Source: Mesonia mobilis DSM 19841
GTDB lineage: Bacteria > Bacteroidota > Bacteroidia > Flavobacteriales > Flavobacteriaceae
Direction of reading: 5' to 3'
Length of the DNA stretch: 64,000 nt
Assembly: GCF_000423405.1 (NCBI RefSeq)
Contig: NZ_AUHX01000005.1
Span: 1-64,000, forward strand
Position 1 is the stretch's first letter. Each line of letters starts with the position of its first letter. A model generated the notes under the pieces. The model ran no database searches. It was not told the origin of the DNA and saw only the letters and a list, made by a program, of their open reading frames with translations. A program made the translations under genes and the position numbers. Shown piece by piece: positions 28,536 to 44,923 of this stretch.

Positions 28536-28614
28536 ATAACAACGAAAGTTATGCAGATGAAGTAGCATAAAAACAGATAGCTTTCGTGTTAATTATAATA
28601 TTAAAAACCCTAAA

Positions 28615-28675: not shown

Positions 28676-28717
28676 CTTAAAAAGGCGAGGAATAAACATT
28701 AATTAAAATAAAAAACA

Positions 28718-28945
28718 ATGAAAAATCACTGGTTATGGATGGTCCTCGGTTGTGGACTGCCGCTTTTACTCATCTTTTTAGCACCATCTATTGGAATTGG
28801 TGGTGGCACCTGGCTTTTTGCATTTATTATAATAATGTTCGCAGTACACTTGTTAATGCCCATGCGGCACGGGAGCCATACGCACGGATTGTCCAATGAG
28901 AACTTAAAAAAGAAGGATAAAAAAAAAGAAGGACAATATTACTAA
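28718..28945 (+). CDS. DUF2933-like small membrane protein
   Basis: 75 residues: MKNHWLWMVLGCGLPLLLIF, a second helix (WLFAFIIIMFAVHLLMPM) and a His/Lys-rich tail (RHGSHTHGLS). The two-helix GCGLPLLL pattern fits DUF2933, found in metal-resistance clusters. The His-rich tail may bind metal at the membrane. It leads a run of four small genes. Confidence 0.7.
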   Translation: MKNHWLWMVLGCGLPLLLIFLAPSIGIGGGTWLFAFIIIMFAVHLLMPMRHGSHTHGLSNENLKKKDKKKEGQYY

Positions 28946-28955
28946 AATTTATGTT

Positions 28956-29168
28956 ATGAAACGAAAATTTCAAATTAATGGTATTAGTTGCGGCGGCTGC
29001 ATTAGCAGGGTCAAAAAGACATTGGAAGAACATCCAAAGATTGAAAAGGCAGAAATTTTTCTGGCACCAAAAGGAGCTACAATCATCACTATGAAGGAAA
29101 CGCTTTCAGTAGATGAATTACAAAAACAACTCAGCAACCTTGAGGGTTACACAATTGAAAAACTATAA
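28956..29168 (+). CDS. HMA-domain protein (small metal chaperone)
   Basis: 70 residues forming one HMA domain with GISCGGCISRVKKT (CxxC at 12 and 15). No signal peptide, so cytoplasmic. It starts 10 bp after the DUF2933-like gene. It resembles the protein at 4532 in size and probably shuttles Cu(I) to a pump such as the CopB-type ATPase further along the strand (inference). Confidence 0.85.
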   Translation: MKRKFQINGISCGGCISRVKKTLEEHPKIEKAEIFLAPKGATIITMKETLSVDELQKQLSNLEGYTIEKL

Positions 29169-29190
29169 AAGTAACTTAAAATCAAAAATT

Positions 29191-29415
29191 ATGTTTTTTC
29201 ACGACGGAAGTTTCGGAGGTATGCACCTGATATGGTGGATTATTTGGATGGCGTTTATCATTTGGATTTTCTTTATCCCAACTGATATCCCATACCAAAA
29301 ACCAAAAAAAGAAAAGCCATTGGACATCCTAAAAAACAGGTTTGCCAAGGGCGAAATTTCAAAGGAGGAATTTGAAGAATCCAAAAAATTATTAAAATCA
29401 GATAACCAATCTTAA
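29191..29415 (+). CDS. SHOCT-domain membrane protein
   Basis: The frame is open from 29113, but the ATG at 29191 (MFFHDGSFGG) starts after the upstream stop and gives 74 residues. One membrane helix (LIWWIIWMAFIIWIFFI) is followed by a C-terminal SHOCT motif (PLDILKNRFAKGEISKEEFEE). SHOCT proteins bind other proteins or lipids at the membrane; the function here is unknown. Confidence 0.8.
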   Translation: MFFHDGSFGGMHLIWWIIWMAFIIWIFFIPTDIPYQKPKKEKPLDILKNRFAKGEISKEEFEESKKLLKSDNQS

Positions 29416-29427
29416 AACATATAAATT

Positions 29428-29703
29428 ATGTATCGATTAAATGTAAAAAAATTCGGTTTTGCCCTCGGTCTAACAGTATCCTTAATTTATTTGGGCTGTA
29501 TGATCGTGATGGCTACAGCAGGACAGGAAGGAACGATTATATTTTTCAACAGCCTTTTACACGGTCTGGACACCAGTAATATTATAAGAATGGACGTGCC
29601 ACTATTAGAAGCATTTTTTGGTATTGTGCAAAGCTTCATTTTAGGCTGGTTGATTGGAGCGTGTATTGCGGCATTTTATAATGCCCAAATAAAAAACAGA
29701 TGA
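29428..29703 (+). CDS. DUF5676-like membrane protein
   Basis: 91 residues with two helices (FALGLTVSLIYLGCMIVMAT and LGWLIGACIAAFYNA) around a short loop. It matches the small DUF5676 membrane family often found in metal-resistance islands. It starts 12 bp after the SHOCT gene. The role is unknown. Confidence 0.7.
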   Translation: MYRLNVKKFGFALGLTVSLIYLGCMIVMATAGQEGTIIFFNSLLHGLDTSNIIRMDVPLLEAFFGIVQSFILGWLIGACIAAFYNAQIKNR

Positions 29704-29797
29704 TTTTGCATTAAATAGGATTGTTTAATCGAAAGTTTAGATAAGGCCCTCTTGAATTTAGAACATAATTATATCAAAGATTCATAAACCGCTAAAA

Positions 29798-30616
29798 ATG
29801 ATAAACAGTAATACTTATAAAAATATTAAGATCATTTTGACTCATTTATTTATTGGGGCAGGTATTTTTTATTTCCTGGTACACCCTTTTACAATGGTAA
29901 TCTACTGGTTTGAGTTCAGTGATACGCCCTTCTCTTTCCCCTTGTTTCAGCAAGTCTTAGAAGAACGTTTTTTGGAATCTTTCAGTTTCAATATGCGGGG
30001 CATGGGCGGACTCTTAACTTTATTGGGAGGATTCTTGGGGATAGTTTCAGGTTTATTCTGGATAAACCTGAAAAAGAAAAATGAAATTATTGGCACACAA
30101 CAGCGGCTGCTTGTTCGTGATATTGAAGAATTAATCCAGGCCGGTGAAAATGAACGGGTGGAATTCAAATCTTCCATACGCTATGATTATTACCGTAAAA
30201 CAACCAATCGGGAACTGGAGTTGGTCATTGCCAAAACCATTGTGGGCTTTATGAATGCCAAGGGTGGAAAACTTATAGTTGGTGTTGATGACGACGGAAA
30301 TGTTCTGGGATTGGAAAAAGATTATAAAACCCTAAAGCATAAAAACATGGATGGGTATGAACGTGCGGTGTTCAGGATTATCTCTACACAATTGGGTCAC
30401 GAGGCTTGTTTCAGCAACCATATTTCGTTCTACAGTATTGATGAGAAAGATGTGTGCGTGGTGGATATCGAACCTTCCAACGAACCGGTTTATGTGAGTG
30501 ATGAAGGAAACACCACTTTTTATGTACGCACAGGAAATGCTACGTATCCACTATCGGTAAAAGAAACAGTGGATTATTTAAAAACCAAAAAGCTTAAGCT
30601 TATGCAATACAACTAG
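29798..30616 (+). CDS. Membrane-anchored AlbA_2 (Schlafen-type) protein
   Basis: 272 residues. Two N-terminal helices (about 10-32 and 70-92) are followed by an AlbA_2/divergent ATP-binding domain: ENERVEFKSSIRYDY, FMNAKGGKLIVGVDDDG, YVRTGNATYPL. AlbA_2 domains bind nucleic acid or nucleotides and are known in regulators and in anti-phage or toxin proteins; membrane anchoring is less common. It closes the small-gene group before the stress-protein region. A 130-bp gap follows. Confidence 0.75.
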   Translation: MINSNTYKNIKIILTHLFIGAGIFYFLVHPFTMVIYWFEFSDTPFSFPLFQQVLEERFLESFSFNMRGMGGLLTLLGGFLGIVSGLFWINLKKKNEIIGTQQRLLVRDIEELIQAGENERVEFKSSIRYDYYRKTTNRELELVIAKTIVGFMNAKGGKLIVGVDDDGNVLGLEKDYKTLKHKNMDGYERAVFRIISTQLGHEACFSNHISFYSIDEKDVCVVDIEPSNEPVYVSDEGNTTFYVRTGNATYPLSVKETVDYLKTKKLKLMQYN

Positions 30617-30748
30617 TTTATAAGAGAGGTTGGAAATGAAATATCCAAAATGATTCGATTACTAAATTCTTTGGCTTGACATGTAAATCTAATTCGGACA
30701 GAATTAGTGGAATTAAACCCGAAATCAGAGATTAAAAAGACGAAAAAA

Positions 30749-31210
30749 ATGAAAATTGTATTGGCCATAGATGGTTCAGATTTTAGTGAAGTAGCCATTA
30801 ACGAGCTTAAGAAAATGACTTTATCCTCAAATAGTGAAATTCATATTATAAATGTTTATGAACTTCCTAAAACAACCGGTCTGGGATTGCATACTATGGG
30901 CGGCAAGATAGGAAATTACATAGAAGAAATTAAAAGTAACGCTCAAAAATTGGGAAACAAAATCGTTTCAGAAGCTTCCGATAAAATCAAGGCCGAAAAC
31001 AAGGCACTTACCATAACCACAAGTGTTGTTAGCGGACTGCCCAAAAGTACTATTAATGAAAAAGCAGAAAATTGGGGTGCAGATTTAATTGTAGTAGGCT
31101 CTCAGGGTCACGGTGCACTTTCACGCTTAGTATTGGGCTCTGTATCCCAATATTTGACCACAAATGCCAAATGTTCAGTACTGATTGCAAGAGATAGAAA
31201 TAAAAAATGA
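30749..31210 (+). CDS. Universal stress protein, single domain
   Basis: The frame is open from 30707, but the ATG at 30749 (MKIVLAIDGSDFSE) matches the Usp start; 153 residues. It has the C-terminal ATP-binding motif VVGSQGHGALSRLVLGSVSQYL (G-2x-G-9x-G-S). It begins the stress/metabolic run and overlaps the NDH-2 gene by 4 bp. Usp proteins bind ATP and act in energy and redox stress. Confidence 0.9.
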   Translation: MKIVLAIDGSDFSEVAINELKKMTLSSNSEIHIINVYELPKTTGLGLHTMGGKIGNYIEEIKSNAQKLGNKIVSEASDKIKAENKALTITTSVVSGLPKSTINEKAENWGADLIVVGSQGHGALSRLVLGSVSQYLTTNAKCSVLIARDRNKK

Positions 31211-32562
31211 AAGAAAAGCAAACACATAGCATTACATTAGAATCCACTTGTAAGATAACAGATGAAATCTGTCTTCCCGATACCAAATTACCTAGTGTGG
31301 TTATCGTTGGTGGAGGATTTGCAGGTTTGGCATTGGTTGAAAAACTGAAACACAAAGAAGTTCAAGTGGTTTTACTCGATAAAAATAACTTCCATCAATT
31401 TCAACCTTTATTATATCAAGTGGCAACGAGTGCGTTGGAACCTGATAGCATAGTATTTCCATTCAGAAAACAAATCAATGGCTATAAAAATGTTTTCTTT
31501 CGTTTGGCAGAAGTTGTGGAAATTCAACCTGATTCAAATACTATATTGACCAATAAGGGAAGTGTTTCTTATGACTATTTAGTGTTGGCTACTGGCACGA
31601 CCACCAATTTCTTTGGGATGGATTCTGTAGCCGAAAATAGTTTGGGGATGAAGGATATTCGCGATTCCCTCAACATCCGTCATATGATGTTGCAAAATTT
31701 GGAACAGGCAGCTATTACTTGTGATGATAAAGAACGCGACGCGCTGACAAATTTTGTAATAGTAGGTGGTGGTCCAGCAGGCGTAGAAATGGCAGGAGCT
31801 TTGGCAGAGTTTTGCAAATACATCCTTCCCAAAGATTACCCAGAGTACCCTTCTTCCATTATGAATATTTATCTAATAGAAGCCATTGATGAGTTGTTAG
31901 GCACAATGTCAGACAAGGCATCATCGAAAACCCTCAAATATTTAGAGGATTTGAATGTAAAGGTATTATTAAATGAAGCTGTAAGCAATTATGACGGCAA
32001 CGAAGTCACTACCAAAAGTGGTAAGACCATTTTGGCTAAAAATCTTATCTGGACGGCTGGCGTAAAAGGACAATTCCCAAATGGTATTGATGAAAAACAC
32101 ATAGTCAGGGGCAACCGGATTAAAACCGATGCTAATTTAAAAGTAGAAGGCTACGAAAACATTTTTGCCATAGGCGATATAGCTGCGCTTATTTCTGAAG
32201 AAAGACCCAAAGGGCATCCACAGGTGGCGCAGGCAGCAATTCAACAAGGTAAATGGTTGGGTGATTCACTATTAAAAATCATTAAGAACGAGGCACCAAA
32301 ACCTTTCGAATATAAAGACAAGGGTTCTTTGGCAACCGTAGGAAAACGTAAAGCAGTAGCCGACTTGGGCAAATTTAAATTTGCAGGCTATTTCGCCTGG
32401 TTGCTGTGGTCCGTTGTTCACTTGATGTCCATAAGTGGATTTAGAAATAGATTGATGGTTGGTTTTAATTGGGCGGTAAGTTATTTCACTTATGAAAAGA
32501 GCAACCGCCTGATTATTAGAAACTTTAAACCGAAATCTTCGGTTAAAAACAGAACAAAATAA
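31207..32562 (+). CDS. Type II NADH dehydrogenase-like oxidoreductase
   Basis: 451 residues of the NDH-2 family: FAD-binding VVIVGGGFAGLALVEKL, KNNFHQFQPLLYQVAT, NAD-binding FVIVGGGPAGVEMAGAL and a C-terminal amphipathic membrane-binding part (AWLLWSVVHLMSI). It passes electrons from NADH to quinone without proton pumping. The first 35 residues (about 1-35) are an extension before the FAD motif. Translation is coupled to the Usp gene. It may keep respiration going when metal damages complex I (inference). Confidence 0.88.
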   Translation: MKEKQTHSITLESTCKITDEICLPDTKLPSVVIVGGGFAGLALVEKLKHKEVQVVLLDKNNFHQFQPLLYQVATSALEPDSIVFPFRKQINGYKNVFFRLAEVVEIQPDSNTILTNKGSVSYDYLVLATGTTTNFFGMDSVAENSLGMKDIRDSLNIRHMMLQNLEQAAITCDDKERDALTNFVIVGGGPAGVEMAGALAEFCKYILPKDYPEYPSSIMNIYLIEAIDELLGTMSDKASSKTLKYLEDLNVKVLLNEAVSNYDGNEVTTKSGKTILAKNLIWTAGVKGQFPNGIDEKHIVRGNRIKTDANLKVEGYENIFAIGDIAALISEERPKGHPQVAQAAIQQGKWLGDSLLKIIKNEAPKPFEYKDKGSLATVGKRKAVADLGKFKFAGYFAWLLWSVVHLMSISGFRNRLMVGFNWAVSYFTYEKSNRLIIRNFKPKSSVKNRTK

Positions 32563-32569
32563 TTTTGAA

Positions 32570-33925
32570 ATGAAAAACACCACAGATAAAAATAATAAGC
32601 TTTCCCTAATAGGTTCCATATCCCTTGGTACAGGCGTAATGATTGGTGCTGGCATATTTGTCCTAATGGGTCAAATAGCTGAATTAGTGGGAGATCTATT
32701 TCCAATAGCATTTATTGCGGGAGCTATTGTGGTAGGTTTTAGTTCGTATTCTTATGTAAAGTTTTCAAACGCTTTTCCTTCCTCTGGAGGTGTCGTAAAA
32801 TTTTTAAGTAAATCCTACGGGCCAGGAACTACAACCGGTGTTTTTTCATTGTTGATGTATGTCTCTATGGTAGTTTCCGAAAGTCTGGTGGCCGGCACTT
32901 TTGGAGCTTATACCCTTCGATTATTCCCAGAAAGTTATGCTGGTTATGCATCCATACTTGGTATTCTACTTTTGGTAACAGCTTATATAATAAATATTCT
33001 AGGAAATAAAGTAATTGGAGCAACGGCCACTTTTACAGCAATTATTAAAGTAGGTGGTATTGCACTACTTGCGATTGCAGGTCTGGTAGCTTCCGGATTT
33101 GCGGATATTACAGGAGACTATATCCCACAAAATACCGAAACCTTACCACAAGGGTTCGGCTTTGTAGCGGCATTGGCATTATCAATCCTTGCCTATAAAG
33201 GGTTCACAACAATAACGAATCAAGGTGGAGACATCAAAAATCCACACAAAAACCTTGGAAGATCCATTGTGATTTCTATTCTTATCTGCACACTTATTTA
33301 TGTAGCCTTGGCACTTGCTGTTGCAGGCGGTTTAAGCATTCCTGAAATAATAAAGGCAAAAGATTATGCTTTGGCAGCAGCAGCCGAACCTGTTTTTGGG
33401 GAATGGGGTTTATGGTTTACTATAGCAATCGCTATTGTAGCAACCTTTTCAGGGGTTATCGCCAGTGTCTTTTCGGCATCGCGCTTATTGGGGATGTTGA
33501 GTAATATGAAACAAGTACCCTCTTTAAAAAGGATAGGTAATTTTAAAAATCCAGCGCTCATATTCACGGTTTCCCTTGCCATTTTACTCACTGCCCTTTT
33601 CGATTTAACAAGAATCGCTTCTATAGGAGCTATTTTCTACCTCATTATGGATATCGCTATCCATTGGGGGCTTTTTCGCCACCTAAAAAACGAGGTAAAA
33701 TTTAAACCCATCATTCCGTTAATAGCCATTGTAATGGACATTGCAGTACTAGCAGCCTTTCTATATATAAAATATCTGAATGATCCAATGGTGCTCATCG
33801 TAGCAGCAATTGGAATTATCCTGATTCTCATTGCGGAACGTTTTTTTATGATTTCGCATACAGACGATGATGGCAATATGCCTATGGGAATGGAGAATAC
33901 AAATAATAAAAACAACAAATCATAA
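32570..33925 (+). CDS. APC-family amino-acid permease
   Basis: 451 residues with twelve predicted helices and the APC signature GTGVMIGAGIFVLMGQ in helix 1. It imports or exchanges an amino acid or related amine. The substrate is not visible. It starts 7 bp after NDH-2, in the same operon. The His/Asp/Met-rich C-terminal tail (HTDDDGNMPMGMEN) is cytoplasmic. Confidence 0.85.
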   Translation: MKNTTDKNNKLSLIGSISLGTGVMIGAGIFVLMGQIAELVGDLFPIAFIAGAIVVGFSSYSYVKFSNAFPSSGGVVKFLSKSYGPGTTTGVFSLLMYVSMVVSESLVAGTFGAYTLRLFPESYAGYASILGILLLVTAYIINILGNKVIGATATFTAIIKVGGIALLAIAGLVASGFADITGDYIPQNTETLPQGFGFVAALALSILAYKGFTTITNQGGDIKNPHKNLGRSIVISILICTLIYVALALAVAGGLSIPEIIKAKDYALAAAAEPVFGEWGLWFTIAIAIVATFSGVIASVFSASRLLGMLSNMKQVPSLKRIGNFKNPALIFTVSLAILLTALFDLTRIASIGAIFYLIMDIAIHWGLFRHLKNEVKFKPIIPLIAIVMDIAVLAAFLYIKYLNDPMVLIVAAIGIILILIAERFFMISHTDDDGNMPMGMENTNNKNNKS

Positions 33926-33943
33926 TTAATTAAAACAATTTAT

Positions 33944-34957
33944 ATGAAAAATATAGCAGTTATAGGATACGGAGTCATAGGAAAAAGGGTGGCCGATGCC
34001 ATCAATCTACAGGACGATATGAAGCTTTCGGGCGTGTGTGATATCATAAGCGATTGGCGCATTCAAAATGCCGTGAGAAAAAAGTACGATATCTACGCAG
34101 CAACTCAAGAAGCAGAAGACAGAATGAAATCCGAAGGTATTTCAGTAAAAGGCGATATGCACGACCTGTTGAAAAAATCAGATCTCGTTGTGGACTGTAC
34201 CCCTAAAAAGATTGCGGCTCAAAATGTAGCAATTTATAAAGAGCAAAACATCAAATTTATTTTACACGGAGGCGAAAAACACGAAACAACAGGCCATTCC
34301 TTTAGTGCAGAAAATAATTACAAATCAGCTCTAAACTTGAATGCGACAAGAGTAGTTTCCTGTAATACTACGTCTATTTTAAGAACCTTGACCGCTTTAA
34401 AAAGAGCCGATTTATTGGATTATGCCAGAGGTACACTTTTAAGAAGAGCTACAGACCCTTGGGAAAGTCATTTGGGTGGTATTATGAATACGATGGTTCC
34501 CGAAAAAGATATCCCAAGCCATCAAGGTCCGGATGCTAAAAGTGTTGACCCAGAATTGGATGTCATCACCGCAGCGGTAAAAGTACCGCAAACCTTAAGC
34601 CATCTGCACTATTGGAATGTGAAATTGAAAAAGCAGGCGACAAAGGAAGAAGTGCTAAATGCTTTCAAAACTTCAAGTCGTATTAAACTAATTCGATATG
34701 ACCAAGGCTTGGTTTCTAACAATACCATTAAGGAAATGTTCTTGGATATGGGAAGGCCTTGGGGCGATATGTACGAAGTTGCGCTGTGGGAAGATATGCT
34801 CAAAGTACAGGGAGACGAACTCTTTTATGCCTACGTGGTCGATAACCAAGCTATTGTAATCCCGGAAACAATTGATGCTATTAGGGCTTTAACTGGAATT
34901 GAAACAGATGGTACAAAATCCATAGCCAAAACAAATGAAAGTTTAGGAATCCATTAA
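33944..34957 (+). CDS. Type II (archaeal-type) glyceraldehyde-3-phosphate dehydrogenase
   Basis: 337 residues. The Rossmann motif [14 protein letters not shown], the active-site Cys in [11 protein letters not shown] (about 140) and the His in [10 protein letters not shown] fit the type II GAPDH of archaea, not the bacterial GapA. It oxidises glyceraldehyde 3-phosphate with NAD(P). Bacteria normally have GapA, so this is likely an extra, imported enzyme. It is followed after 11 bp by an archaeal-type aldolase, which acts one step upstream in glycolysis. Confidence 0.88.
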
Positions 34958-34968
34958 ATACTATCAAA

Positions 34969-36030
34969 ATGAAAACAGACAAGAATATAGTAGAACTTTT
35001 AGGAGAAAAAGCAGACTTCTATTTAGAACACGTTTGTGAAAAAATAACAAAGGATGAATTGCAAGTGCCAAGCAAAAATAGTTTAGAAAAAGTATTTGGC
35101 AGTAGCAACAGAAATCCGCAGGTGCTTCGAAGTCTTTCACAATTGTACAACAACGGAAATCTGGGAGGTACAGGCTATTTAAGTATCCTTCCTGTGGACC
35201 AAGGTATTGAGCATAGCGCGGCCTTTTCATTCTATAAAAACCCAGATTATTTCGACCCAGAGAACATTATAAAACTCGCCCTTGAGGCCGGTTGTAATGG
35301 GGTGGCTTCCACGTTTGGGGTTTTGGGTTTGAATGCCCGAAAATATGCCCATAAAATCCCTTTTATCGTTAAGATTAACCACAATGAACTGCTTACCTAC
35401 CCGAACAAATATGACCAAACACTCTTTGGTAAGGTAAAAACCGCTTGGGATATGGGAGCAATTGCCGTAGGAGCTACGATTTATTTTGGTTCAGCGGAAA
35501 GTAACAGACAACTCAAAGAAATAGCAGAGGCTTTTGAAGAAGCTCATAATCTTGGTATGGCTACCATTTTATGGTGCTATACACGAAATGAAGCTTTTAA
35601 AACCGATAAAGAAGATTATCACGCATCGGCCGATGTAACCGGACAAGCCAATCAGATTGGAGTAACGATACAGGCAGATATCATCAAACAAAAATTACCA
35701 ACCAATAATTTTGGTTTCAAAGAGATAGGATTTGGAAAATATGATGATGAAATGTATAAAACCCTTACCACAGACCACCCTATTGACCTTTGCAGGTTGC
35801 AAGTAGCCAATTGCTATATGGGTAAAATAGGGCTGATTAATTCAGGTGGTGGTTCCAAAGGCAAATCAGATTTGTCCGAAGCTGTAACAACTGCCGTCAT
35901 CAATAAAAGGGCTGGTGGCTCTGGGCTGATAATGGGAAGAAAAGCATTTCAAAAGCCTTTTATTAGAGGGATTGAGTTACTGCACTCCGTCCAACAGGTA
36001 TATCTGGAAGATAGTATAACCATAGCTTAA
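34969..36030 (+). CDS. Class I fructose-bisphosphate aldolase, DhnA/archaeal type
   Basis: 353 residues. The [16 protein letters not shown] motif is the hallmark of archaeal-type class I FBP aldolases, and [12 protein letters not shown] and a [10 protein letters not shown] phosphate-binding loop complete the TIM barrel. It cleaves or forms fructose 1,6-bisphosphate through a lysine Schiff base. It pairs with type II GAPDH at 33944, suggesting a portable triose-phosphate module. Confidence 0.88.
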
Positions 36031-36062
36031 TTATAACGAAAACAATTTAAAAACAATAAATC

Positions 36063-36893
36063 ATGAAAAACATACTCGTACCTACAAACTTTTCAGAAAA
36101 CTGCAAGAAAGCAGAGGAACTCGGAATTGAAATGGCAAAGCTTTACAATTCAGAAATTCATTTTTTTCACTTAATTAACACCCCCGTAAACTGGGTTGAG
36201 CTAGATAAGGAAAAAGAAAAAAGATATCCAGAAACAGTAAAGCAAATAGGCATCGCAAAAGCCTCCTTGAGAGAACTGGAGAAAAAAGCAGAACGACAAG
36301 GCCTTGAGTGCAGGACTTTTCTTGAATTTGATGGTGGTCAGGCAAATATCCTTAAACATTCGGGTCATTTTCATCACGATTTTATAGTTACGGGAAGTAG
36401 TGGCACCCGAGGCGGTATACGTGAGTTAATGGGAAGCAACGTAGAAAAAATTGTTAGGAAAGCTGATGTACCAGTTGTTGTAGTCAAGGATGAAGAAGTA
36501 TCCTTTCCTTTTAAGGATATCGTTTTTGTTTCAGATTTTCTTCAAGATGTAAGCGATGCATTTAAGCAGGTTATTTCGATTGCTGAAAAATGCGGCGCAC
36601 ATATCCATTTATTGAGGGTCAATACTCAGACCGATTTTAACAGTATAGAACAAGGGTTGGATCCCATCAAGGAGTTCCTGAAAAAATTCCCCGATTTGGA
36701 TAACTTCTCAATGAATGTATATAACGAACAAGACGTAGAAACAGGGATAAACAATTTTTTACGATATAAAAATGCCGATTTAATCGCAATGTGTACTCAC
36801 GGACGTACAGGCTTTTTAACTTTATTCTCTAAAAGCATCGCAGAGGGTGTAACCAATCACTCCGAATTACCAGTAATGACTATTAAAATGTAA
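36063..36893 (+). CDS. Tandem universal stress protein
   Basis: 276 residues made of two Usp domains. The first starts KNILVPTNFSENC and has VTGSSGTRGGIRELMGSNVEKIV; the second starts FKDIVFVSDF and ends MCTHGRTGFLTLFSKSIAEGV. The second nucleotide loop is less typical. It lies between the aldolase and the ATP-cone nuclease, 2 bp before the latter. Confidence 0.9.
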   Translation: MKNILVPTNFSENCKKAEELGIEMAKLYNSEIHFFHLINTPVNWVELDKEKEKRYPETVKQIGIAKASLRELEKKAERQGLECRTFLEFDGGQANILKHSGHFHHDFIVTGSSGTRGGIRELMGSNVEKIVRKADVPVVVVKDEEVSFPFKDIVFVSDFLQDVSDAFKQVISIAEKCGAHIHLLRVNTQTDFNSIEQGLDPIKEFLKKFPDLDNFSMNVYNEQDVETGINNFLRYKNADLIAMCTHGRTGFLTLFSKSIAEGVTNHSELPVMTIKM

Positions 36894-36895
36894 CA

Positions 36896-37738
36896 ATGAA
36901 TAAATCAGTCTTAATAAAAAAATACTCTGGTGAGTACGAAGCCTTTGATGTAAACAAACTCATCAACTCCCTGCGGCGTTCACGGGCAGATGAGGATATT
37001 ATTCAGGATGTAGCCCGGAAAGTACAAGAGCAGATTGAAGAAGGAATGACAACCAAAAAAATCTATCAGTTGGCTTTCAAGATGCTAAAACGAAAATCTA
37101 GGGTAAGTGCCTCAAAGTACAAGCTCAAAAAAGCTTTAATGGAACTAGGTCCAACCGGTTTTCCATTTGAAAAGTTAGTAGGCAAACTATTGGCACACGA
37201 AGGATTTTCAACACAGGTTGGTGTCATAGTTCAAGGCAATTGCGTTCAGCACGAAGTGGATGTGATAGCGCAAAAAGGAAATAAACATTATATGATTGAA
37301 TGTAAATACCATAGTGACCAAGGCAGGTTTTGCAATGTAAAAATCCCATTATATATCCATTCACGGTTTTTGGACGTGGAAAAGCAATGGAAACACCAAA
37401 AAGGTCACGAGGCTAAACTTCATAAAGGCGGGGTTTACACCAATACGCGTTTCACAACCGATGCCATTCAGTACGGGAAATGTGTTGGAATGCTTATGAC
37501 CAGTTGGGATTATCCAAGAGGAAATGGTCTCAAGGACAGAATAGATAAATCGGGGCTACATCCCTTAACCGCTTTAACAACACTTACCAAAGCTGAAAAA
37601 ACAAAATTATTGGATCAAGGCATCATACTCTGCAAGGAGCTACACGAAAATCCAGACTTTTTGGAACAAATGGGTATCAGTAAGCTAAGGCAAAATAAGA
37701 TACTCGAAGATTCAAGAGAATTATGTAGATCCCATTAA
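36896..37738 (+). CDS. ATP-cone domain fused to Mrr-like nuclease
   Basis: 280 residues. The N-terminal ~95 are an ATP-cone (KYSGEYEAFDVNKLINSLRRS and EEGMTTKKIYQLAFKML), the nucleotide-sensing domain of ribonucleotide reductases and NrdR. The middle has a PD-(D/E)XK nuclease core: FPFEKLVGKLL, HEVDVIAQKGNKHYMIECKYH. So nuclease action may be gated by ATP/dATP. It is within a stress and nucleotide gene group that also codes AMP phosphorylase and PRPP synthetase. Substrate (DNA, RNA) unknown. Confidence 0.82.
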   Translation: MNKSVLIKKYSGEYEAFDVNKLINSLRRSRADEDIIQDVARKVQEQIEEGMTTKKIYQLAFKMLKRKSRVSASKYKLKKALMELGPTGFPFEKLVGKLLAHEGFSTQVGVIVQGNCVQHEVDVIAQKGNKHYMIECKYHSDQGRFCNVKIPLYIHSRFLDVEKQWKHQKGHEAKLHKGGVYTNTRFTTDAIQYGKCVGMLMTSWDYPRGNGLKDRIDKSGLHPLTALTTLTKAEKTKLLDQGIILCKELHENPDFLEQMGISKLRQNKILEDSRELCRSH

Positions 37739-37779
37739 TTCAAATAATGAATAATTACTAATTTTTAAAAATAATACAA

Positions 37780-38034
37780 ATGAAAACTGAAGAATTGCAA
37801 AAACAGGGCAACATAGATTTAGAACCATTTTACCAGGCATTGGAAGATGACTCAAAACTACTTGAAGAAGCCCTTGAGATATTATTGGAAATGGTTCACT
37901 TTGTACCTAAATCAGTAAAGAAATTGGCTCTTTTTATTAAAGAGGATTCTCGTAATCTATATAATGAGATAACAAAATTATATAAATCGAGCCAAAACCA
38001 AAGCAATACACCTTCCTGCTGTGGAGGACACTAA
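37780..38034 (+). CDS. Small hypothetical with C-terminal CCGGH motif
   Basis: 84 residues, helical and acidic, with a final NTPSCCGGH that looks like a metal-binding tail. It is not recognised. It stands between the ATP-cone nuclease and the MBL hydrolase with short gaps (41 and 15 bp), consistent with one operon. It might be a small regulator or adaptor of either neighbour. Confidence 0.7.
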   Translation: MKTEELQKQGNIDLEPFYQALEDDSKLLEEALEILLEMVHFVPKSVKKLALFIKEDSRNLYNEITKLYKSSQNQSNTPSCCGGH

Positions 38035-38049
38035 ATAAATGCTATAAAG

Positions 38050-39426
38050 ATGACAAACAACAAAATAAACATCCATTTTTTAGGAGCGGCAGGCACAGTA
38101 ACCGGTTCAAAATATCTGGTAGATACAGGAGATAAAAAGATACTCATAGACTGCGGACTTTTTCAAGGGCTAAAGGAATTACGCCTTAAAAACTGGGAGT
38201 ATCCACCTGTTAATGTAGGTGATATTGATGCTGTTTTGCTCACCCACGGTCATATGGACCATACAGGTTATTTACCCAGATTGGTAAAGCAAGGTTTCAA
38301 AGGGCCCATTTACGGCACCAATCCCACCTTGGACATCGCAAAAATCATATTGAAAGATAGTGCCAAAATACAAGAACAGGAAGCAGAACGTGCCAACAAA
38401 GAAGGCTATTCCAAACACAGTCCTGCCGAACCACTTTACGATTTGAAGGATGTAGAAAAAACCATTCCGCATTTTAAAGGTATTCCACAAGCACAATGGA
38501 TTCCATTGTTTGACGGTATCAGAGTTCGTTTCCAATACAACGGGCACATTCTGGGAGCAACTTACATTGAGTTGGATGTACACAGGAAACGTTTTGTGTT
38601 TTCTGGCGATATAGGCAGAACAAACGATTTATTACTGTTTCCGCCATTAAAGCCAAAAAAGGCAGATGTATTATTTATTGAATCCACCTACGGAGGAAGA
38701 TTTCATCCTGATGAAGTAGAAGCACTTCCACAGATAGAAAAATTGGTCAATGACACCATCAACAGAGGTGGCAGCCTATTTGTTCCAAGTTTTTCAGTAG
38801 AACGTGCCCAATTGATGATGCTGATTTTTTGGAAATTATTGAAAGAGAAGAAAATACCAAAAATACAAATGATAATGGATAGCCCAATGGGAGCAAGTGT
38901 ATTAGAATTGTTTCATCGCACAAGAGATTGGCACAGGTTGGAAGATAACGAATGTGACGAAATGTGCTCGCACTTTACGGTCGTAAGCAGTTATCGGGAA
39001 ACAATGGAATTACGAACAGATAATAAACCGAAAATCGTGATTGCAGGAAGCGGAATGCTCACAGGCGGAAGAATGCTAAACTACCTTGAAACACAGGCAC
39101 AAAATCCAAATAACACCTTACTTTTTGTAGGCTATCAAGCTGAAGGCACTCGTGGCAGAAAATTATTGGAAGGCGATAAGGAACTAAAAGTCTATGGAAA
39201 ATGGGTGCCCTTTGATATGGAAGTTGCAGAAATTGAAGGTCTTTCAGCACACGCAGACCACGCAGAACTTATGGACTGGATGGATAAGATAAAAAACAAA
39301 CCCGAACGTATTTTCATTGTACACGGTGAAAAAGAGAGTGCAGAAGCATTGCAAAAAGGCATCAAGGAAACCTATGGGTGGGATGCAGAAATTCCGCAAT
39401 TATACACCATCGAAGAAATAGAATAA
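38050..39426 (+). CDS. MBL-fold beta-CASP hydrolase (RNA-processing type)
   Basis: 458 residues: GAAGTVTGSKYLV, the metal site LTHGHMDHTGYLPRL, a beta-CASP domain, SGDIGR, AGSGMLTGGRMLNYL and the RMMBL motif SAHADHAELMDWM. These are the features of CPSF73-like exonucleases and endonucleases. It likely cleaves RNA in the cytoplasm; the target is unknown. It precedes AMP phosphorylase, so a pathway from RNA to nucleoside monophosphates to pentose phosphates is conceivable (inference). Confidence 0.88.
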   Translation: MTNNKINIHFLGAAGTVTGSKYLVDTGDKKILIDCGLFQGLKELRLKNWEYPPVNVGDIDAVLLTHGHMDHTGYLPRLVKQGFKGPIYGTNPTLDIAKIILKDSAKIQEQEAERANKEGYSKHSPAEPLYDLKDVEKTIPHFKGIPQAQWIPLFDGIRVRFQYNGHILGATYIELDVHRKRFVFSGDIGRTNDLLLFPPLKPKKADVLFIESTYGGRFHPDEVEALPQIEKLVNDTINRGGSLFVPSFSVERAQLMMLIFWKLLKEKKIPKIQMIMDSPMGASVLELFHRTRDWHRLEDNECDEMCSHFTVVSSYRETMELRTDNKPKIVIAGSGMLTGGRMLNYLETQAQNPNNTLLFVGYQAEGTRGRKLLEGDKELKVYGKWVPFDMEVAEIEGLSAHADHAELMDWMDKIKNKPERIFIVHGEKESAEALQKGIKETYGWDAEIPQLYTIEEIE

Positions 39427-39454
39427 ATCGAAAAATCACAACAACCAATAAAAT

Positions 39455-40957
39455 ATGGACACACACTCAAACATATTAAAATATAAACATCTCGGAATCT
39501 ATACCCAAAACGAAAATGTAGTGTATATGCGCGAAGATTGCCACGTTTGTATTTCAGAAGGTTTTGAAGCACTTACCCGAATAAGAATATCCAATGCAAA
39601 TACATCAATCGTAGCAAGTCTTAATGTCCTGAATTCTGATATTCTGTTGCCTAATGAAATCGGACTATCAGATGCTGCTGCGAAAAAACTCAATGTTTCC
39701 GCAAACGATACATTATATGTTTCCCATTTAGAGCCTATTGAATCCTTAAGCCACGTCAGGGCAAAAATCTATAACAAAAAACTGGATTATAAGGCCTATA
39801 ACAACATCATAACCGATATCGTGGAAGGCGATTATTCCAACATCCACCTTTCGGCATTTATTACTGCCTGTGCTGGCGACCGAATGGATATTGATGAAAT
39901 ATCCGACCTAACGAAAGCAATGATTGCTTCCGGAAAGCAACTGAACTGGAACAAGGATATCGTGGTCGACAAACATTGTATTGGCGGATTGCCTGGCAAT
40001 AGGACAACACCATTGGTAGTTGCCATTGTTGCCGCGTATGGGCTTACTATGCCAAAAACATCCTCACGGGCAATCACTTCGCCAGCTGGCACAGCAGATA
40101 CAATGGAAGTACTGACCAATGTTACGCTCTCTTCCGAGGAAATAAAGACCGTAGTAGAAAAAGAAGGCGGATGTTTTGTTTGGGGCGGTACAGCGCAGTT
40201 AAGTCCTGCCGATGATGTGCTCATTAAAATTGAAAAAGCCTTGGATATTGATAGCGAAGGTCAGCTCATCGCTTCAGTACTCTCTAAAAAGGCAGCAGCT
40301 GGTTCTACTCACGTGGTCATTGATATTCCCGTGGGAGAAACCGCCAAGGTTCGCAGTACCGAAATGGCAGAAAAACTAAAAAATCATATGGAAACCGTTG
40401 GAACTGCTGTTGGGTTGAATGTAAAAGTTGTAGTTACGGATGGCACGCAGCCTGTTGGAAGGGGTATCGGTCCAACTTTAGAAGCCATAGATATATTAAA
40501 AGTTTTGAAAAATGAGGAAGATGCACCTAAAGACTTAACAGAAAGAGCATTGCTTTTAGCTACTGAACTATTAGAACTTTCTGGAAAAGTAGAAAAAGGA
40601 AAGGGACAGGAAACCGCACATAAAATTCTCAAATCTGGAAAAGCATATGAAAAATTCGTAGCCATTTGTAAGGCGCAAGGTCAATTTTCAAAACCAGTTT
40701 TAGCACCTTATAAAATTGAAATTAAAGCTGAAAAGTCAGGCGTTTTGCAACGAATTGATAACCGTAAAATTGCAAAACTGGCCAAGCTTTCTGGAGCACC
40801 ACAATCTAAATCGGCAGGGATTCTTCTAAATGTGCATTTGGGAGAACAAATCGAAGAGAACCAACTGCTTTATACCATATATGCTGAATCCAAAGGTGAA
40901 CTTAATTATGCCTTGGAATATGAAAACAACCATAACGACATCATAACTATAAATTAA
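39455..40957 (+). CDS. AMP/thymidine phosphorylase family enzyme (archaeal type)
   Basis: 500 residues: an N-terminal ~90-residue extra domain as in archaeal AMP phosphorylase, then the nucleoside phosphorylase II core with DKHCIGGLPGNRTTPLVVAIV and KTSSRAITSPAGTADTMEVL. Archaeal AMP phosphorylase converts AMP and phosphate to adenine and ribose 1,5-bisphosphate. Length and N-domain favour AMP phosphorylase over bacterial DeoA (about 440). It is followed after 10 bp by a PRPP synthetase. No ribose-1,5-bisphosphate isomerase or RuBisCO lies in the window. Confidence 0.85.
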   Translation: MDTHSNILKYKHLGIYTQNENVVYMREDCHVCISEGFEALTRIRISNANTSIVASLNVLNSDILLPNEIGLSDAAAKKLNVSANDTLYVSHLEPIESLSHVRAKIYNKKLDYKAYNNIITDIVEGDYSNIHLSAFITACAGDRMDIDEISDLTKAMIASGKQLNWNKDIVVDKHCIGGLPGNRTTPLVVAIVAAYGLTMPKTSSRAITSPAGTADTMEVLTNVTLSSEEIKTVVEKEGGCFVWGGTAQLSPADDVLIKIEKALDIDSEGQLIASVLSKKAAAGSTHVVIDIPVGETAKVRSTEMAEKLKNHMETVGTAVGLNVKVVVTDGTQPVGRGIGPTLEAIDILKVLKNEEDAPKDLTERALLLATELLELSGKVEKGKGQETAHKILKSGKAYEKFVAICKAQGQFSKPVLAPYKIEIKAEKSGVLQRIDNRKIAKLAKLSGAPQSKSAGILLNVHLGEQIEENQLLYTIYAESKGELNYALEYENNHNDIITIN

Positions 40958-40967
40958 AGAACATACT

Positions 40968-41861
40968 ATGAAAACAATATTATTCAGTCTTCCCGGAAAT
41001 GAAGAACTCACAGAACTAATGGCTACAAAAATGGATGCTGAAGTGGGTCAAGCCACATTAAGGAAATTCCCTGACGGGGAATCATACACACGCATATTGT
41101 CTGATGTTAAAGATAAATGTGTGGTACTGGTATGCACCTTGCACGAACCGGACGAAAAACTGTTGTCACTATATTTTTTAAGCCACACAGCCAAATCATT
41201 AGGAGCTATGTGTACCTGTTTGGTAGCACCCTATTTGGCGTATATGCGGCAGGACAAAGTATTTAATGAAGGAGAAGGAGTGACTTCCGGTTTCTTCGGA
41301 AAATTGATTTCTGGTTTCGCCGATAGCATTACCACGGTTGACCCTCACTTGCACAGAATTAGTTCGTTGGGAGAAGTGTATCAAATTCCAAATAAAGTGA
41401 TTCACGCTGCCGACGCAATTTCAGAATGGATTAAAGAAAATATCGAAAACCCGGTACTTATCGGACCTGATTCTGAAAGTGAACAATGGGTATCAGAAGT
41501 CGCCAAAAATGCAGGAGCACCATTTACGGTATTACAAAAGGTGCGTCACGGTGACCGTGATGTAGAAGTCTCTGTTCCCGATGTGGATATATATAAAGAT
41601 GCTACACCCATTTTGGTAGATGATATTATTTCCACAGCCCGAACAATGATTGAAACCGTACAACATCTTAAAAAAGCAGGAATGAAACCACCTATTTGTG
41701 TAGGCATTCACGCCGTTTTTTCAGGAAACGCCTATCAAGATTTATTGGATTCCGGAGTAGAAAAAATAGTGACTTGTAATACCATCCCACACTCTTCAAA
41801 TGGAATAGATTTAAGTGATATTATGGCAAAAGAGGTAAAAAAATTAATGCACCATATATGA
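40968..41861 (+). CDS. Ribose-phosphate pyrophosphokinase
   Basis: 297 residues. PRPP-binding loop ILVDDIISTARTM, flexible loop KVRHGDRDVEV, and the DPHLHR metal-binding motif identify a PRPP synthetase of the shorter, archaeal-like kind. It makes PRPP and AMP from ribose 5-phosphate and ATP. AMP is the substrate of the enzyme coded just before it, so the two may form a short route to ribose 1,5-bisphosphate. It is surely not the housekeeping copy, given its place in the island. Confidence 0.88.
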   Translation: MKTILFSLPGNEELTELMATKMDAEVGQATLRKFPDGESYTRILSDVKDKCVVLVCTLHEPDEKLLSLYFLSHTAKSLGAMCTCLVAPYLAYMRQDKVFNEGEGVTSGFFGKLISGFADSITTVDPHLHRISSLGEVYQIPNKVIHAADAISEWIKENIENPVLIGPDSESEQWVSEVAKNAGAPFTVLQKVRHGDRDVEVSVPDVDIYKDATPILVDDIISTARTMIETVQHLKKAGMKPPICVGIHAVFSGNAYQDLLDSGVEKIVTCNTIPHSSNGIDLSDIMAKEVKKLMHHI

Positions 41862-42502
41862 GAAAACAAGGCTTTATAGTACTATTTATATTATTCAGTA
41901 TCACAATAAATGCACAAACTGAAATGCTCATTGGGCAGATTTCAGGTAGAGTTGTTATTCGAGAAAATTTTGATGAAGAAGGCTCTTTTCTAAACAAACA
42001 AACTTTCAAAGCCAGTGAAACAATAAAGAAAAATGGATACTATGAAATTGAGGTAGTTACGGAATTGTTTGATAAAGACAAAAAATTGACCGATAAATAC
42101 ACCACAACCTATCGTTGCAAGCCTGATGAAGCAAGTGTAGTGGTAATGGCTTTCCCGTTTTCCAATCCAAAATCAAAGAAAACAGAAATCAACACCACTT
42201 CAAAGAAATTTAAAGAACTATACAATTTGGATAATCTGAAAAATATTGAATTGGAAATGAGTTTTGACTCGGGCTTGTTGAATTTTTTCGGTTCAAAAAG
42301 CATCATAAAAATTTACGATCGAAAATTAGAAGCTGGCAAAAACACTATTAAATCAAAAATAAATATTAAGGCCTATGCCTGGGGTATTCGCATCAAGCAA
42401 CTCAATTATACCGTTATCGAAAAATTAAATGAAAAAGGTTTATTGACTTTTCAGAAATTTTCAGAAGCAGATAACAGCTATTTTACAATAAACTATAATT
42501 AA
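41858..42502 (+). CDS. Hypothetical secreted protein
   Basis: 214 residues with a signal peptide (MRKQGFIVLFILFSITINAQ) and a beta-rich body without a known motif. Its start overlaps the stop of the PRPP synthetase by 4 bp, so it is translated with it. That is odd for a secreted protein after a cytoplasmic enzyme. A transthyretin- or CarboxypepD-like fold is possible (GQISGRVVIRENFDEEGSFL), but not sure. Confidence 0.65.
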   Translation: MRKQGFIVLFILFSITINAQTEMLIGQISGRVVIRENFDEEGSFLNKQTFKASETIKKNGYYEIEVVTELFDKDKKLTDKYTTTYRCKPDEASVVVMAFPFSNPKSKKTEINTTSKKFKELYNLDNLKNIELEMSFDSGLLNFFGSKSIIKIYDRKLEAGKNTIKSKINIKAYAWGIRIKQLNYTVIEKLNEKGLLTFQKFSEADNSYFTINYN

Positions 42503-42508
42503 AGACAG

Positions 42509-42802
42509 ATGAAAAATTACGATACACTTTCTGAAGCCATAAACGATTTACAGGGAAATGGCTATACATATGATTTTAACCTAAAACCAGAATGTTTGGA
42601 GTGTGCCTCACTAAAAATTGAAATACACCCAGAAGATTTTAATGTTGACGAGATGCATCGTTTTGAGGGTATGAGCAGTACCGACGATAATAGTGTGCTT
42701 TATGCTATTTCATCAAAAAATGGGATTAAAGGACTTTTGGTAGATGCTTATGGCGTCTATGCCGAAAACATTTCGGAAGCTATGAGAAAAAAATTACGAT
42801 AA
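42509..42802 (+). CDS. Small conserved hypothetical protein
   Basis: 97 residues: YDTLSEAINDLQGNGYTYDF, ECLECASLKIEIHPEDF, MHRFEGMSS and VDAYGVYAE. Small proteins of this pattern are widespread in Bacteroidota and sometimes carry the name phosphoribosylpyrophosphate synthetase, likely only through genome context. No catalytic motif of such an enzyme is present. A Cys pair in CLEC may bind metal. It lies between the secreted protein and CopB. Confidence 0.7.
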   Translation: MKNYDTLSEAINDLQGNGYTYDFNLKPECLECASLKIEIHPEDFNVDEMHRFEGMSSTDDNSVLYAISSKNGIKGLLVDAYGVYAENISEAMRKKLR

Positions 42803-42820
42803 CACTTAAACAAGACAATA

Positions 42821-44923
42821 ATGGAAAATCACGAACACCACAATCACGATGAAATGGACCATTCTAAAATGGACCATTCGAAGATGAAACACAAAAAAGA
42901 AGACCATTCTAAAATGAACCACAAAGGTGGAGACCATTCTGGCCACAATCCAGGGCACGGAGAACACGGGCACGACCATCATAAAATGATGATTGCCGAT
43001 TTTAGAAAACGGTTTTGGGTAACCCTTGTACTTACTATTCCCATACTGTTCTTCTCGCCGATGATTCAGGACTTTTTTGGATATGAGTTTTTGCTTCCCG
43101 GAAATCCATATATCCTTTTTGCACTTTCCACAATCGTATATTTCTATGGTGGTTGGCCATTTTTAAAAGGATTCTGGTCTGAAATCAAAAAAGGTGCACC
43201 AGGGATGATGACCCTTATTTCTATGGCCATTACCGTGGCTTACGTTTATAGTTCGGCAACGGTGTTTGGTTTAGAAGGTGTCGATTTTTTCTGGGAACTG
43301 GCTACGCTTATTGCTATTATGCTTGTAGGTCATTGGATAGAGATGAAAAGCGTTCTAGGCGCCTCTAAGGCCTTGCAGCTGTTAGTAAGCATGATGCCTG
43401 CCGAGGCACATCGTGTTAAAGGAGACACTATTGAAGATATTCCTCTGGAAGATTTACTGAAAGATGACGTAATACTTGTAAAACCAGGTGAAAAAGTTCC
43501 TGCTGATGGGATTATAGTAGACGGTTCAAGTTACCTGAACGAATCTATGCTTACAGGCGAATCCAAACCTGTAAAAAAAGATGAAAACGATAAGGTTATT
43601 GGTGGTTCGGTAAATGGTAACAGTACCTTAAAAGTAAAGGTTGAGCATACTGGAAAAGATAGCTATCTCAACAAGGTCATCAAAATGGTCGAAGAAGCGC
43701 AAAAAACCAAATCAAAAATGCAAAACCTCTCGGATAGAGCTGCAAAATGGCTTACCTATATCGCATTAGGTATTGGTTTTGGAACATTAGCGGTATGGCT
43801 GATTTTAGGCTTTCCATTTGTCTATGCTTTAGAAAGAATGGTTACCGTTATGGTCATTGCTTGTCCACACGCATTAGGTCTTGCCATACCACTTGTGGTT
43901 GCTATTTCTACTGCTGTTTCAGCTCAAAACGGGTTATTAATTCGAAATAGGACAGCTTTTGAAGAATCCCGAAAAATATCAGCTTTATTGTTTGATAAAA
44001 CGGGAACATTGACCAAAGGCGATTTTGGCGTTACTCGAATTGAGTCTGTTAGCGAAACTTATTCATCTGAAGAAATTTTAAGGCTTTCGAGTGCATTGGA
44101 ACAAAGTTCGGAACATCCTATCGCCGTAGGTATTATTAAAAAAGTCAAAGAAGATAATATGACCATCCCAAAGCCTGAAAACTTTAATGCAATTACAGGT
44201 AAAGGCGTTGAGGCCAATGTAGAAGGTAAGCAAGTAAAAGTGGTTAGTCCTGGTTTTTTAAGGGATGAAAAAATCACTATTCCCGAAGACGCATACAGTG
44301 ATGCCGCTGAAACAGTTGTTTTTGTCTTGATTGATGGAAAATTAGCTGGTTACATTGCTCTTGCCGATGAAATACGACCAGAATCTGCCGAAGCCATAAA
44401 AGTCTTTAAAAAGAATAATATAAAAGTTTTAATGGCTACCGGTGATAATGAAAGAACTGCCAAAGCTGTTAGCGATAAACTCGGCTTGGATGGATACTAC
44501 GCCGAAGTTTTGCCACATCAAAAAGTGGAAATAGTAAAAGAATTGGAAAGTAAGGGAGAGTTTGTGGCTATGACTGGCGATGGTGTAAACGATGCGCCTG
44601 CACTTGCAAAAGCTGATGTTGGTATTGCCGTTGGTTCAGGTACTGACGTTGCCGCCGAAACAGCAGATATCATTCTGGTCAACAGTAACCCACAGGATAT
44701 TGCCAACTTAATTCTCTTTGGAAAAGCCACCTACAATAAAATGATTCAGAATTTGATTTGGGCTACAGGATATAATGTAGTGGCTATTCCTTTAGCAGCC
44801 GGTGTATTATATTCTTCAGGCTTTGTTTTAGGACCAGCTGTAGGAGCGGTATTTATGAGTTTAAGTACGATTATAGTGGCCATTAATGCGCAACTATTAA
44901 AGCGAAAAATCGGTAAAAAATAA
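42821..44923 (+). CDS. copB: CopB-type copper ATPase (CPH motif)
   Basis: 700 residues. The N-terminus (1-55) is very rich in His, Met and Asp, in MDHSKM-like repeats instead of an HMA domain. The membrane metal site is IACPHALGLA (CPH), typical of P1B-3 CopB pumps, followed by DKTGTLTKGD and TGDGVNDAPAL. It exports copper, probably with preference unlike CopA (CPC) at 4765. It ends the plus-strand run; the next gene overlaps its stop region and is truncated. Confidence 0.93.
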   Translation: MENHEHHNHDEMDHSKMDHSKMKHKKEDHSKMNHKGGDHSGHNPGHGEHGHDHHKMMIADFRKRFWVTLVLTIPILFFSPMIQDFFGYEFLLPGNPYILFALSTIVYFYGGWPFLKGFWSEIKKGAPGMMTLISMAITVAYVYSSATVFGLEGVDFFWELATLIAIMLVGHWIEMKSVLGASKALQLLVSMMPAEAHRVKGDTIEDIPLEDLLKDDVILVKPGEKVPADGIIVDGSSYLNESMLTGESKPVKKDENDKVIGGSVNGNSTLKVKVEHTGKDSYLNKVIKMVEEAQKTKSKMQNLSDRAAKWLTYIALGIGFGTLAVWLILGFPFVYALERMVTVMVIACPHALGLAIPLVVAISTAVSAQNGLLIRNRTAFEESRKISALLFDKTGTLTKGDFGVTRIESVSETYSSEEILRLSSALEQSSEHPIAVGIIKKVKEDNMTIPKPENFNAITGKGVEANVEGKQVKVVSPGFLRDEKITIPEDAYSDAAETVVFVLIDGKLAGYIALADEIRPESAEAIKVFKKNNIKVLMATGDNERTAKAVSDKLGLDGYYAEVLPHQKVEIVKELESKGEFVAMTGDGVNDAPALAKADVGIAVGSGTDVAAETADIILVNSNPQDIANLILFGKATYNKMIQNLIWATGYNVVAIPLAAGVLYSSGFVLGPAVGAVFMSLSTIIVAINAQLLKRKIGKK

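Follow-up and report, generated by a model that had tools for sequence, protein, structure and literature searches.

Mobile islands that confer metal resistance through copper pumps bring together integrases, Cus-type efflux, a multicopper oxidase, P1B ATPases, and mer genes, and an element of this kind occupies much of the stretch analyzed here, the first 64 kb (the window) of contig C4 in the genome of Mesonia mobilis DSM 19841 (3.2 Mb, 99.9% complete). Unlike the described islands, it contains a long run of central-metabolism isozymes with a copper pump in it, including a type II glyceraldehyde-3-phosphate dehydrogenase (GAPDH-II). Recruitment of a GAPDH gene to a metal(loid)-resistance element is familiar from arsenate resistance, where the enzyme adopts a type I fold and acts together with ArsJ; the GAPDH of the present island, however, is of type II, and no ArsJ is encoded in the run. 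The plasmid-borne sul and dfr genes exemplify target replacement in antibiotic resistance, and here, too, a second isozyme on a mobile element would stand in for a poisoned one, except that in our proposal a metal would act as the poison and the replacement would cover several enzymes together. A metal-independent phosphoglycerate mutase of Staphylococcus aureus (PMC6684088) reportedly keeps glycolysis going in a comparable way, but its gene is chromosomal and the stress is manganese starvation rather than copper excess. No description of the island itself was found in the literature, as judged largely from titles and the beginnings of abstracts.

A preliminary description of this DNA had proposed 13 co-oriented, tightly spaced genes at positions 30749–42802, and all of them indeed lie on the + strand, with intergenic gaps of −4 to 41 bp. 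It had overlooked a copper P-type ATPase of the CPH type that starts only 18 bp past its right boundary. For this reason the unit likely comprises 14 genes (30749–44923, Table 1); the ATPase gene directly follows the 97-aa open reading frame (ORF) in seven of the nine related loci with enough sequence. We tentatively interpret the island as portable and co-transcribed, bypassing central metabolism as part of a copper, perhaps silver, resistance element, and would place this interpretation slightly short of an even chance.

The island GAPDH passes the type II models NF003251 (449.5 bits; cut-off 185) and TIGR01546 (329.6 bits; cut-off 232.9), and in the alignment it keeps the catalytic SCNTT, including Cys140. 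Its four solved relatives, all named GAPDH, are presumably of archaeal origin. The aldolase passes the class I model NF006707 (631.8 bits; cut-off 327), has DeoC/LacD as its sole Pfam family, and shows no match to PF01116, the class II family. The phosphoribosyl pyrophosphate (PRPP) synthetase, Prs, passes NF005537 (397.2 bits; cut-off 322), and its nearest solved relative is 1u9y, which is archaeal. The ATP-cone match stands exactly at the Pfam cut-off (25.8). The phosphorylase passes two models of putative thymidine phosphorylases, NF003338 (692.5 bits; cut-off 434) and TIGR02645 (604.9 bits; cut-off 434.6), and falls under the cut-off of 535 of the AMP phosphorylase equivalog TIGR03327, at 495.6 bits. 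Thus, the gene families named beforehand stand in all cases but that of AMP phosphorylase, and of the three enzymes taken to be of archaeal kind, GAPDH-II and the phosphorylase are recognized as such by TIGR01546 and TIGR02645. The last gene encodes a pump that passes TIGR01511 (613.5 bits; cut-off 397) and combines the CPH motif with a His-rich start (HEHHNHDEMDH...), i.e., a P1B-3 (CopB-type) ATPase as defined in the available text of PMC5552934.

Two side observations concern neighboring enzymes. The top NCBIfam match of the beta-CASP protein (38050–39426) is the model of the type VII CRISPR nuclease Cas14 (392 bits; cut-off 800), with the archaeal aCPSF1 model lower, at 308 bits. The phosphorylase family occurs on 155 plasmid records, in 108 of them at ≥80% coverage.

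As had been claimed, the island duplicates basic reactions of the host. The type I GAPDH gene of the host adjoins a phosphofructokinase gene (contig C4, ~97.0–98.1 kb), its class II fructose-bisphosphate aldolase is encoded at C2:344175-345194, and its own Prs at C5:134511-135416. The island enzymes differ in type from these counterparts, being a type II rather than type I GAPDH, a class I rather than class II aldolase (FBA-I), and a Prs of the PRK07199 subfamily.

To place the island in other genomes, contigs were scanned with the GAPDH-II alignment, and the best 80 of 400 relatives were kept as loci; since these loci stop 10 kb from GAPDH-II, gene counts among them are minima. Marker comparison revealed a common order, AraC–DUF5676–(Slfn)–Usp–NDH-2–(APC)–GAPDH-II–FBA-I followed by Usp–ATP-cone–ORF–beta-CASP–phosphorylase–Prs–two ORFs–CopB, in dozens of Flavobacteriaceae as well as in Cyclobacterium (L031) and Membranihabitans (L071). 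A shorter form with phosphoketolase, GAPDH-II, ATP-cone, beta-CASP, phosphorylase, Prs, and CopB is present in the gammaproteobacterium Marinicella (L100), whose GAPDH-II, Prs, and CopB are 87, 89, and 88% identical to those of the window. Hence the gene order proposed for checking is conserved outside the host, largely so even in Marinicella. FBA-I lies beside GAPDH-II in at least 78 of the 80 loci; the ATP-cone gene is found in at least 60, the phosphorylase in at least 33, Prs in at least 23, and CusA in at least 32, and the APC permease is present in 43 and missing from 37.

In the host's family, surveyed with one genome per genus, GAPDH-II occurs in 15 of 249 genomes (80–97% identical to the window's protein, its own copy excepted), and in the class of Marinicella in 1 of 229, Marinicella itself. 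Identical GAPDH-II proteins are encoded in different genera, e.g., Marixanthomonas, Nonlabens, and Gillisia, and in a tree built without archaeal sequences the window's protein pairs with the Cyclobacterium copy (support 100/99). Because of these two observations, sequence comparison identifies the spread of the island as horizontal, and the gene tree, called for earlier as a check, is not that of ordinary vertical inheritance.

Other copies of the island are fuller than that of the window. Between FBA-I and the second Usp gene, an ATP-dependent phosphofructokinase is found in at least 53 of the 80 loci and a D-2-hydroxyacid dehydrogenase, nearest to D-lactate dehydrogenase models although under their cut-offs, in at least 47; the order FBA–phosphofructokinase–dehydrogenase is kept in 47 of the 47 loci holding both. 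Phosphoketolase (at least 6 loci), acetate kinase (at least 6), and glycogen phosphorylase (at least 7) also occur. None of these five genes is found in the window's run. The presence of glycolytic and fermentative genes in other copies points to a role in energy metabolism, not in RNA salvage.

GAPDH-II is also linked to metal pumps. A heavy-metal ATPase is encoded 5.8–19.6 kb from GAPDH-II in 20 of 20 genomes, each with three to eight such ATPases, and at 3.5–7.9 kb in all six further GAPDH-II genomes, one of which (G560) has a partial GAPDH-II match. Taken together, a pump lies within 20 kb in 26 of 26 genomes, compared with about 1.8 expected from random placement. These genomes (six Mesonia including the host's own, fourteen further members of its family, Marinicella, and five from another Bacteroidota family) share island descent, and so the count represents linkage rather than 26 independent events.

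The linkage extends to plasmids. From 37 plasmid records with GAPDH-II, 17 regions were chosen for variety (ten alphaproteobacterial, one beta- and one gammaproteobacterial, one from Pontibacter, one from Meiothermus, and three actinobacterial), and 13 of them have a P1B pump no more than 12 kb from GAPDH-II. The pump motif is CPD in eight regions, CPH in three, and CPC in two, one of the latter also having a CPH pump further off. In control plasmid regions around type I GAPDH genes, a pump was found within 12 kb in 0 of 6 (Fisher p 0.002 vs. 13/17); the six were taken from 30 listed among 266 matching records, avoiding ArsJ-associated genes and chromosome-sized records. Thus, the suggested co-occurrence with metal genes is borne out in both samples.

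The CPD pumps deserve separate mention. The motif replaces CPC or CPH in a P1B-ATPase near GAPDH-II in plasmid loci L024, L029, L184, L185, L188, L190, L192, and L193, and CPD-type ATPases seem to be a recurrent partner of GAPDH-II islands. In the available text of PMC5552934, the CPD subtype of copper ATPases comprises only three Rhizobiales proteins. The Rhizobiales plasmid pumps of that paper belong to the same family as those found here, where the CPD variant stands beside GAPDH-II in 8 of 13 plasmid regions, whereas phosphoketolase and phosphorylase have no match in the portion of its text available (PMC5552934).

Differing lineages join GAPDH-II with differing ATP-yielding genes near pumps. 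The Corynebacterium plasmid region combines it with a copper ATPase, FBA, and phosphoketolase, the Meiothermus region with FBA, phosphofructokinase, and glycogen phosphorylase, and on Roseovarius and Sulfitobacter plasmids (L184, L193) a full arginine deiminase pathway lies between GAPDH-II and the metal pump. A Criblamydia plasmid carries ATP-cone, beta-CASP, phosphorylase, Prs, phosphoketolase, glycogen phosphorylase, and acetate kinase genes beside a CusA-type transporter; that region has no GAPDH-II, and the P-type ATPase encoded there is not a CPx enzyme. There may exist a class of mobile modules in which metal-poisoned enzymes (GAPDH, aldolase, Prs, respiratory NADH dehydrogenase) are replaced and substrate-level ATP is supplied in one unit with a copper exporter, in combinations that vary across Bacteroidota, Pseudomonadota, Actinomycetota, and Deinococcota. 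We advance this generalization tentatively, and give it somewhat less than an even chance.

Class I aldolase needs no metal, in contrast to the metal-dependent class II enzyme, and NDH-2 has no iron-sulfur cluster. We propose that when metal exceeds the capacity of the pumps, type I GAPDH, PRPP synthetase, class II aldolase, and iron-sulfur respiratory enzymes would be inactivated, and that non-homologous or distantly related replacements (class I aldolase, type II GAPDH, the second Prs, and NDH-2) would be made in the same run as the copper-exporting ATPase. In the fuller copies, phosphofructokinase and the lactate-type D-2-hydroxyacid dehydrogenase, or phosphoketolase, acetate kinase, and glycogen phosphorylase, would maintain substrate-level ATP and NAD+, thereby keeping the pump supplied with energy when respiration is impaired. 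According to the available portions of the respective papers, Cu(I) inhibits Prs of S. aureus both in vitro and in vivo, this species accumulates the metabolites that precede the GAPDH and Prs steps (PMC10249872), and its GAPDH is inhibited by copper (PMC6350627); in S. pyogenes, copper inhibits GapA and not the unrelated isozyme GapN (PMC7733945); and in E. coli, silver binds GapA and Pgk with loss of activity and depletion of ATP (PMC6557469). The bypass is suggested because GAPDH and Prs, both reported as copper targets, are among the replaced steps and their genes share a run with a copper exporter. Going from linkage to function, we infer that the genes are co-expressed and induced by metal, that the replacements tolerate it, and that the cell benefits.

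A number of observations weigh against such a bypass. The island GAPDH and Prs retain catalytic Cys/His, among them Cys140 of the type II GAPDH, and residue counts aimed at Cys, Met, and His depletion of the island enzymes showed none: compared with the host counterparts, GAPDH has 3 vs. 3 Cys and 9 vs. 6 His, and Prs 6 vs. 5 Cys and 11 vs. 9 His. As the two enzymes are not poorer in Cys or His, any metal tolerance is invisible in the sequence. The window's run includes neither Pgk nor enolase, though silver also hits Pgk. Location on one element links genes regardless of what they do, and the genomes in the count are not independent of one another. Of the 66 long GAPDH-II loci, only 32 could be credited with a CPx pump or CusA, a lower bound given the short ±10 kb flanks and a motif list without CPD (the pump of L146 passes its cut-off by model). 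Four of the 17 plasmid regions (Pontibacter, Phenylobacterium, Acidovorax, Croceicoccus) have no pump within 12 kb; on the Pontibacter plasmid, resistance-nodulation-division (RND) efflux genes lie close by, and a CPH copper ATPase is encoded in another part. Some neighbors of GAPDH-II, namely nirK and pyruvate:ferredoxin oxidoreductase, look anaerobic, and in other Bacteroidota, ATP-cone/beta-CASP pairs stand with Usp genes and without a metal gene. No common regulatory motif was found, and sigma-70-like sites number 52 vs. 61 in shuffled sequence, so that promoter-like matches do not exceed the shuffles and are uninformative.

Several of these points are shared with a close rival, in which the island serves survival of low oxygen or starvation in general, and metal genes are found on these elements because both kinds of gene are favored in the same habitats. 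The fermentation, glycogen, Usp, CBS, and nucleotide genes would then aid cells in anoxia or energy stress, e.g., in sediments and biofilms. Usp genes within the run agree with this, as do nirK beside GAPDH-II, pyruvate:ferredoxin oxidoreductase together with alcohol dehydrogenase, the arginine deiminase pathway, and the Indioceanicola and Croceicoccus regions rich in glycogen and trehalose genes, the latter without a nearby pump. The metal-free pairs point the same way: 49 of 296 Bacteroidota genomes encode ATP-cone proteins, and among 40 further ATP-cone loci, the 33 of at least 19 kb include 20 with beta-CASP, 5 with GAPDH-II, 1 with phosphorylase, 1 with Prs, and at least 7 with a CPx pump. 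ATP-cone/beta-CASP is therefore a wider stress gene pair and not a metal gene as such. However, the pump sits inside the run and not merely on the element, the linkage holds in 26/26 genomes and 13/17 plasmid regions, and a low-oxygen role leaves unexplained why the GAPDH and Prs of an aerobe need other enzyme types. We regard this rival as a real possibility that on balance is rather doubtful. Hitch-hiking, with the enzymes riding by chance on a successful metal-resistance element and sharing no function, is unlikely: mobile elements often carry mixed cargo, and the run is variable, with the APC permease, phosphofructokinase/dehydrogenase, and other insertions present or absent, yet the invariant order of FBA, phosphofructokinase, and dehydrogenase, the near-constant pairing of FBA-I with GAPDH-II, and the recurrence of like gene choices near pumps on plasmids of other phyla speak against it.

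The preliminary description had suggested that the island could turn RNA/AMP into pentose and triose phosphates; in such a route, RNA would be cut to nucleoside monophosphates and AMP phosphorolyzed to ribose-1,5-bisphosphate (R15P). The nuclease-like and beta-CASP genes adjoin the phosphorylase and Prs genes here, and the same four are neighbors on plasmids of Criblamydia and Pontibacter. R15P isomerase is required in both of the archaeal R15P pathways that the available text of PMC9700705 names, and the island resembles them in its phosphorylase of the AMP/thymidine phosphorylase family. In contrast to them, the nearly complete host genome yielded no match to R15P isomerase (TIGR00511) or to Rubisco (PF00016), which the Thermococcales version uses, and no PhnN-type R15P kinase over the cut-off. 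Because these downstream enzymes were not found, and with a phosphorylase under the AMP-phosphorylase cut-off, the route is unsupported and very improbable. Hardly any weight goes to a scheme after ArsJ, the least probable of all, in which GAPDH would build a metal(loid)-phosphoglycerate for export by the neighboring permease. A permease does adjoin GAPDH-II, and GAPDH genes associated with ArsJ are known from plasmids, but this permease is APC-type rather than ArsJ-like and, as noted, absent from nearly half of the loci, and no major facilitator superfamily (MFS) member is among the scanned genes of the run.

At the right end of the unit, a strong hairpin begins 15 bp beyond the stop of the copper ATPase, and a 199-bp gap follows; because the better T tail of the hairpin is on the − strand, it is only suggestive as a putative end of the unit. 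Upstream, the palindrome CTAATTC-N5-GAATTAG (30689–30707) was considered as a general operator and rejected, since it is rare: the exact form occurs only in the window, L047, L066, and L075, and forms with up to three mismatches in 8 of 76 upstream regions. The Bacteroidota-type promoter pattern has no + strand match in 26–46 kb.

The surrounding DNA is, as described before, a mobile metal-resistance element, with two tyrosine integrases, a coupling-protein-like gene, a DUF5712 gene (presumably with a relaxase role), and copper and mercury genes. Within 8536–11245 and 13299–15101 (both −), MerA and MerT each have an extra heavy-metal-associated domain, and a DUF3347 domain is present in the CusB-like protein. 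A DNA polymerase III alpha-like gene adjoins a Y-family polymerase on the element (46792–51017, −) and resembles an inducible mutagenesis pair. Past 58.3 kb the genes are ordinary, e.g., a HisS-like synthetase; just beyond the second integrase, a D-lactate-dehydrogenase-like gene (58383–59378, −) encodes a protein 50% identical to the dehydrogenase of the fuller islands.

Table 1. Features of the island and of the mobile element in the window.
Feature	Position	Strand	Matches and remarks
Mobile element with island	635..58102		Approximate extent; tyrosine integrases 635-1849, 56765-58102
Metal genes: CopA-like ATPase, MerA, MerT, CusB, multicopper oxidase, outer-membrane protein, CusA	4765..26636	-	
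Conserved lead-in: AraC-type regulator, SHOCT protein, DUF5676 protein, Slfn/AlbA_2 protein	27954..30616	+	
Usp1 (universal stress protein)	30749..31210	+	First gene of run; Pfam Usp, E 8.9e-26; ATG at 30749
NDH-2 (type II NADH dehydrogenase)	31207..32562	+	Pyr_redox_2, NDH2_C
APC-family permease	32570..33925	+	AA_permease_2; variable gene
Type II (archaeal-type) GAPDH	33944..34957	+	NF003251; SCNTT with Cys140 kept
Class I fructose-bisphosphate aldolase, DhnA/FbaB type	34969..36030	+	NF006707
Usp2, tandem universal stress protein	36063..36893	+	Pfam Usp, two stretches
ATP-cone and Mrr-type nuclease domain protein	36896..37738	+	ATP-cone, Mrr_cat
84-aa ORF	37780..38034	+	Position conserved; no family matched
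Beta-CASP metallo-hydrolase, RNase-like	38050..39426	+	Beta-Casp, RMMBL
Thymidine/AMP phosphorylase-like enzyme	39455..40957	+	NF003338, TIGR02645 above cut-off; TIGR03327 below
Second PRPP synthetase (Prs), PRK07199 subfamily	40968..41861	+	NF005537
214-aa ORF	41858..42502	+	No family matched
97-aa ORF	42509..42802	+	No family matched
CopB-like P1B-3 copper ATPase	42821..44923	+	Last gene of run; TIGR01511; CPH motif; His-rich N-terminus
Hairpin, 14 pairs	44939..44973		Terminator-like on either strand; z -4.8
Coupling-protein-like gene	51157-52593	-	On mobile element
DUF5712 gene	52590-53624		On mobile element

The module is real, conserved, horizontally moving, and wider than previously seen, and it hints at metal resistance by replacement of poisoned enzymes besides pumping the metal out. 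The main intracellular targets of copper are still debated; if spare GAPDH and Prs genes are carried because these enzymes are naturally relevant targets, evolution would in effect list copper's targets. Should the bypass be true, it would join efflux and sequestration as a route of metal resistance, and a testable one. Even if the low-oxygen rival is right, a portable kit for glycolysis and fermentation that crosses phyla would be unusual.

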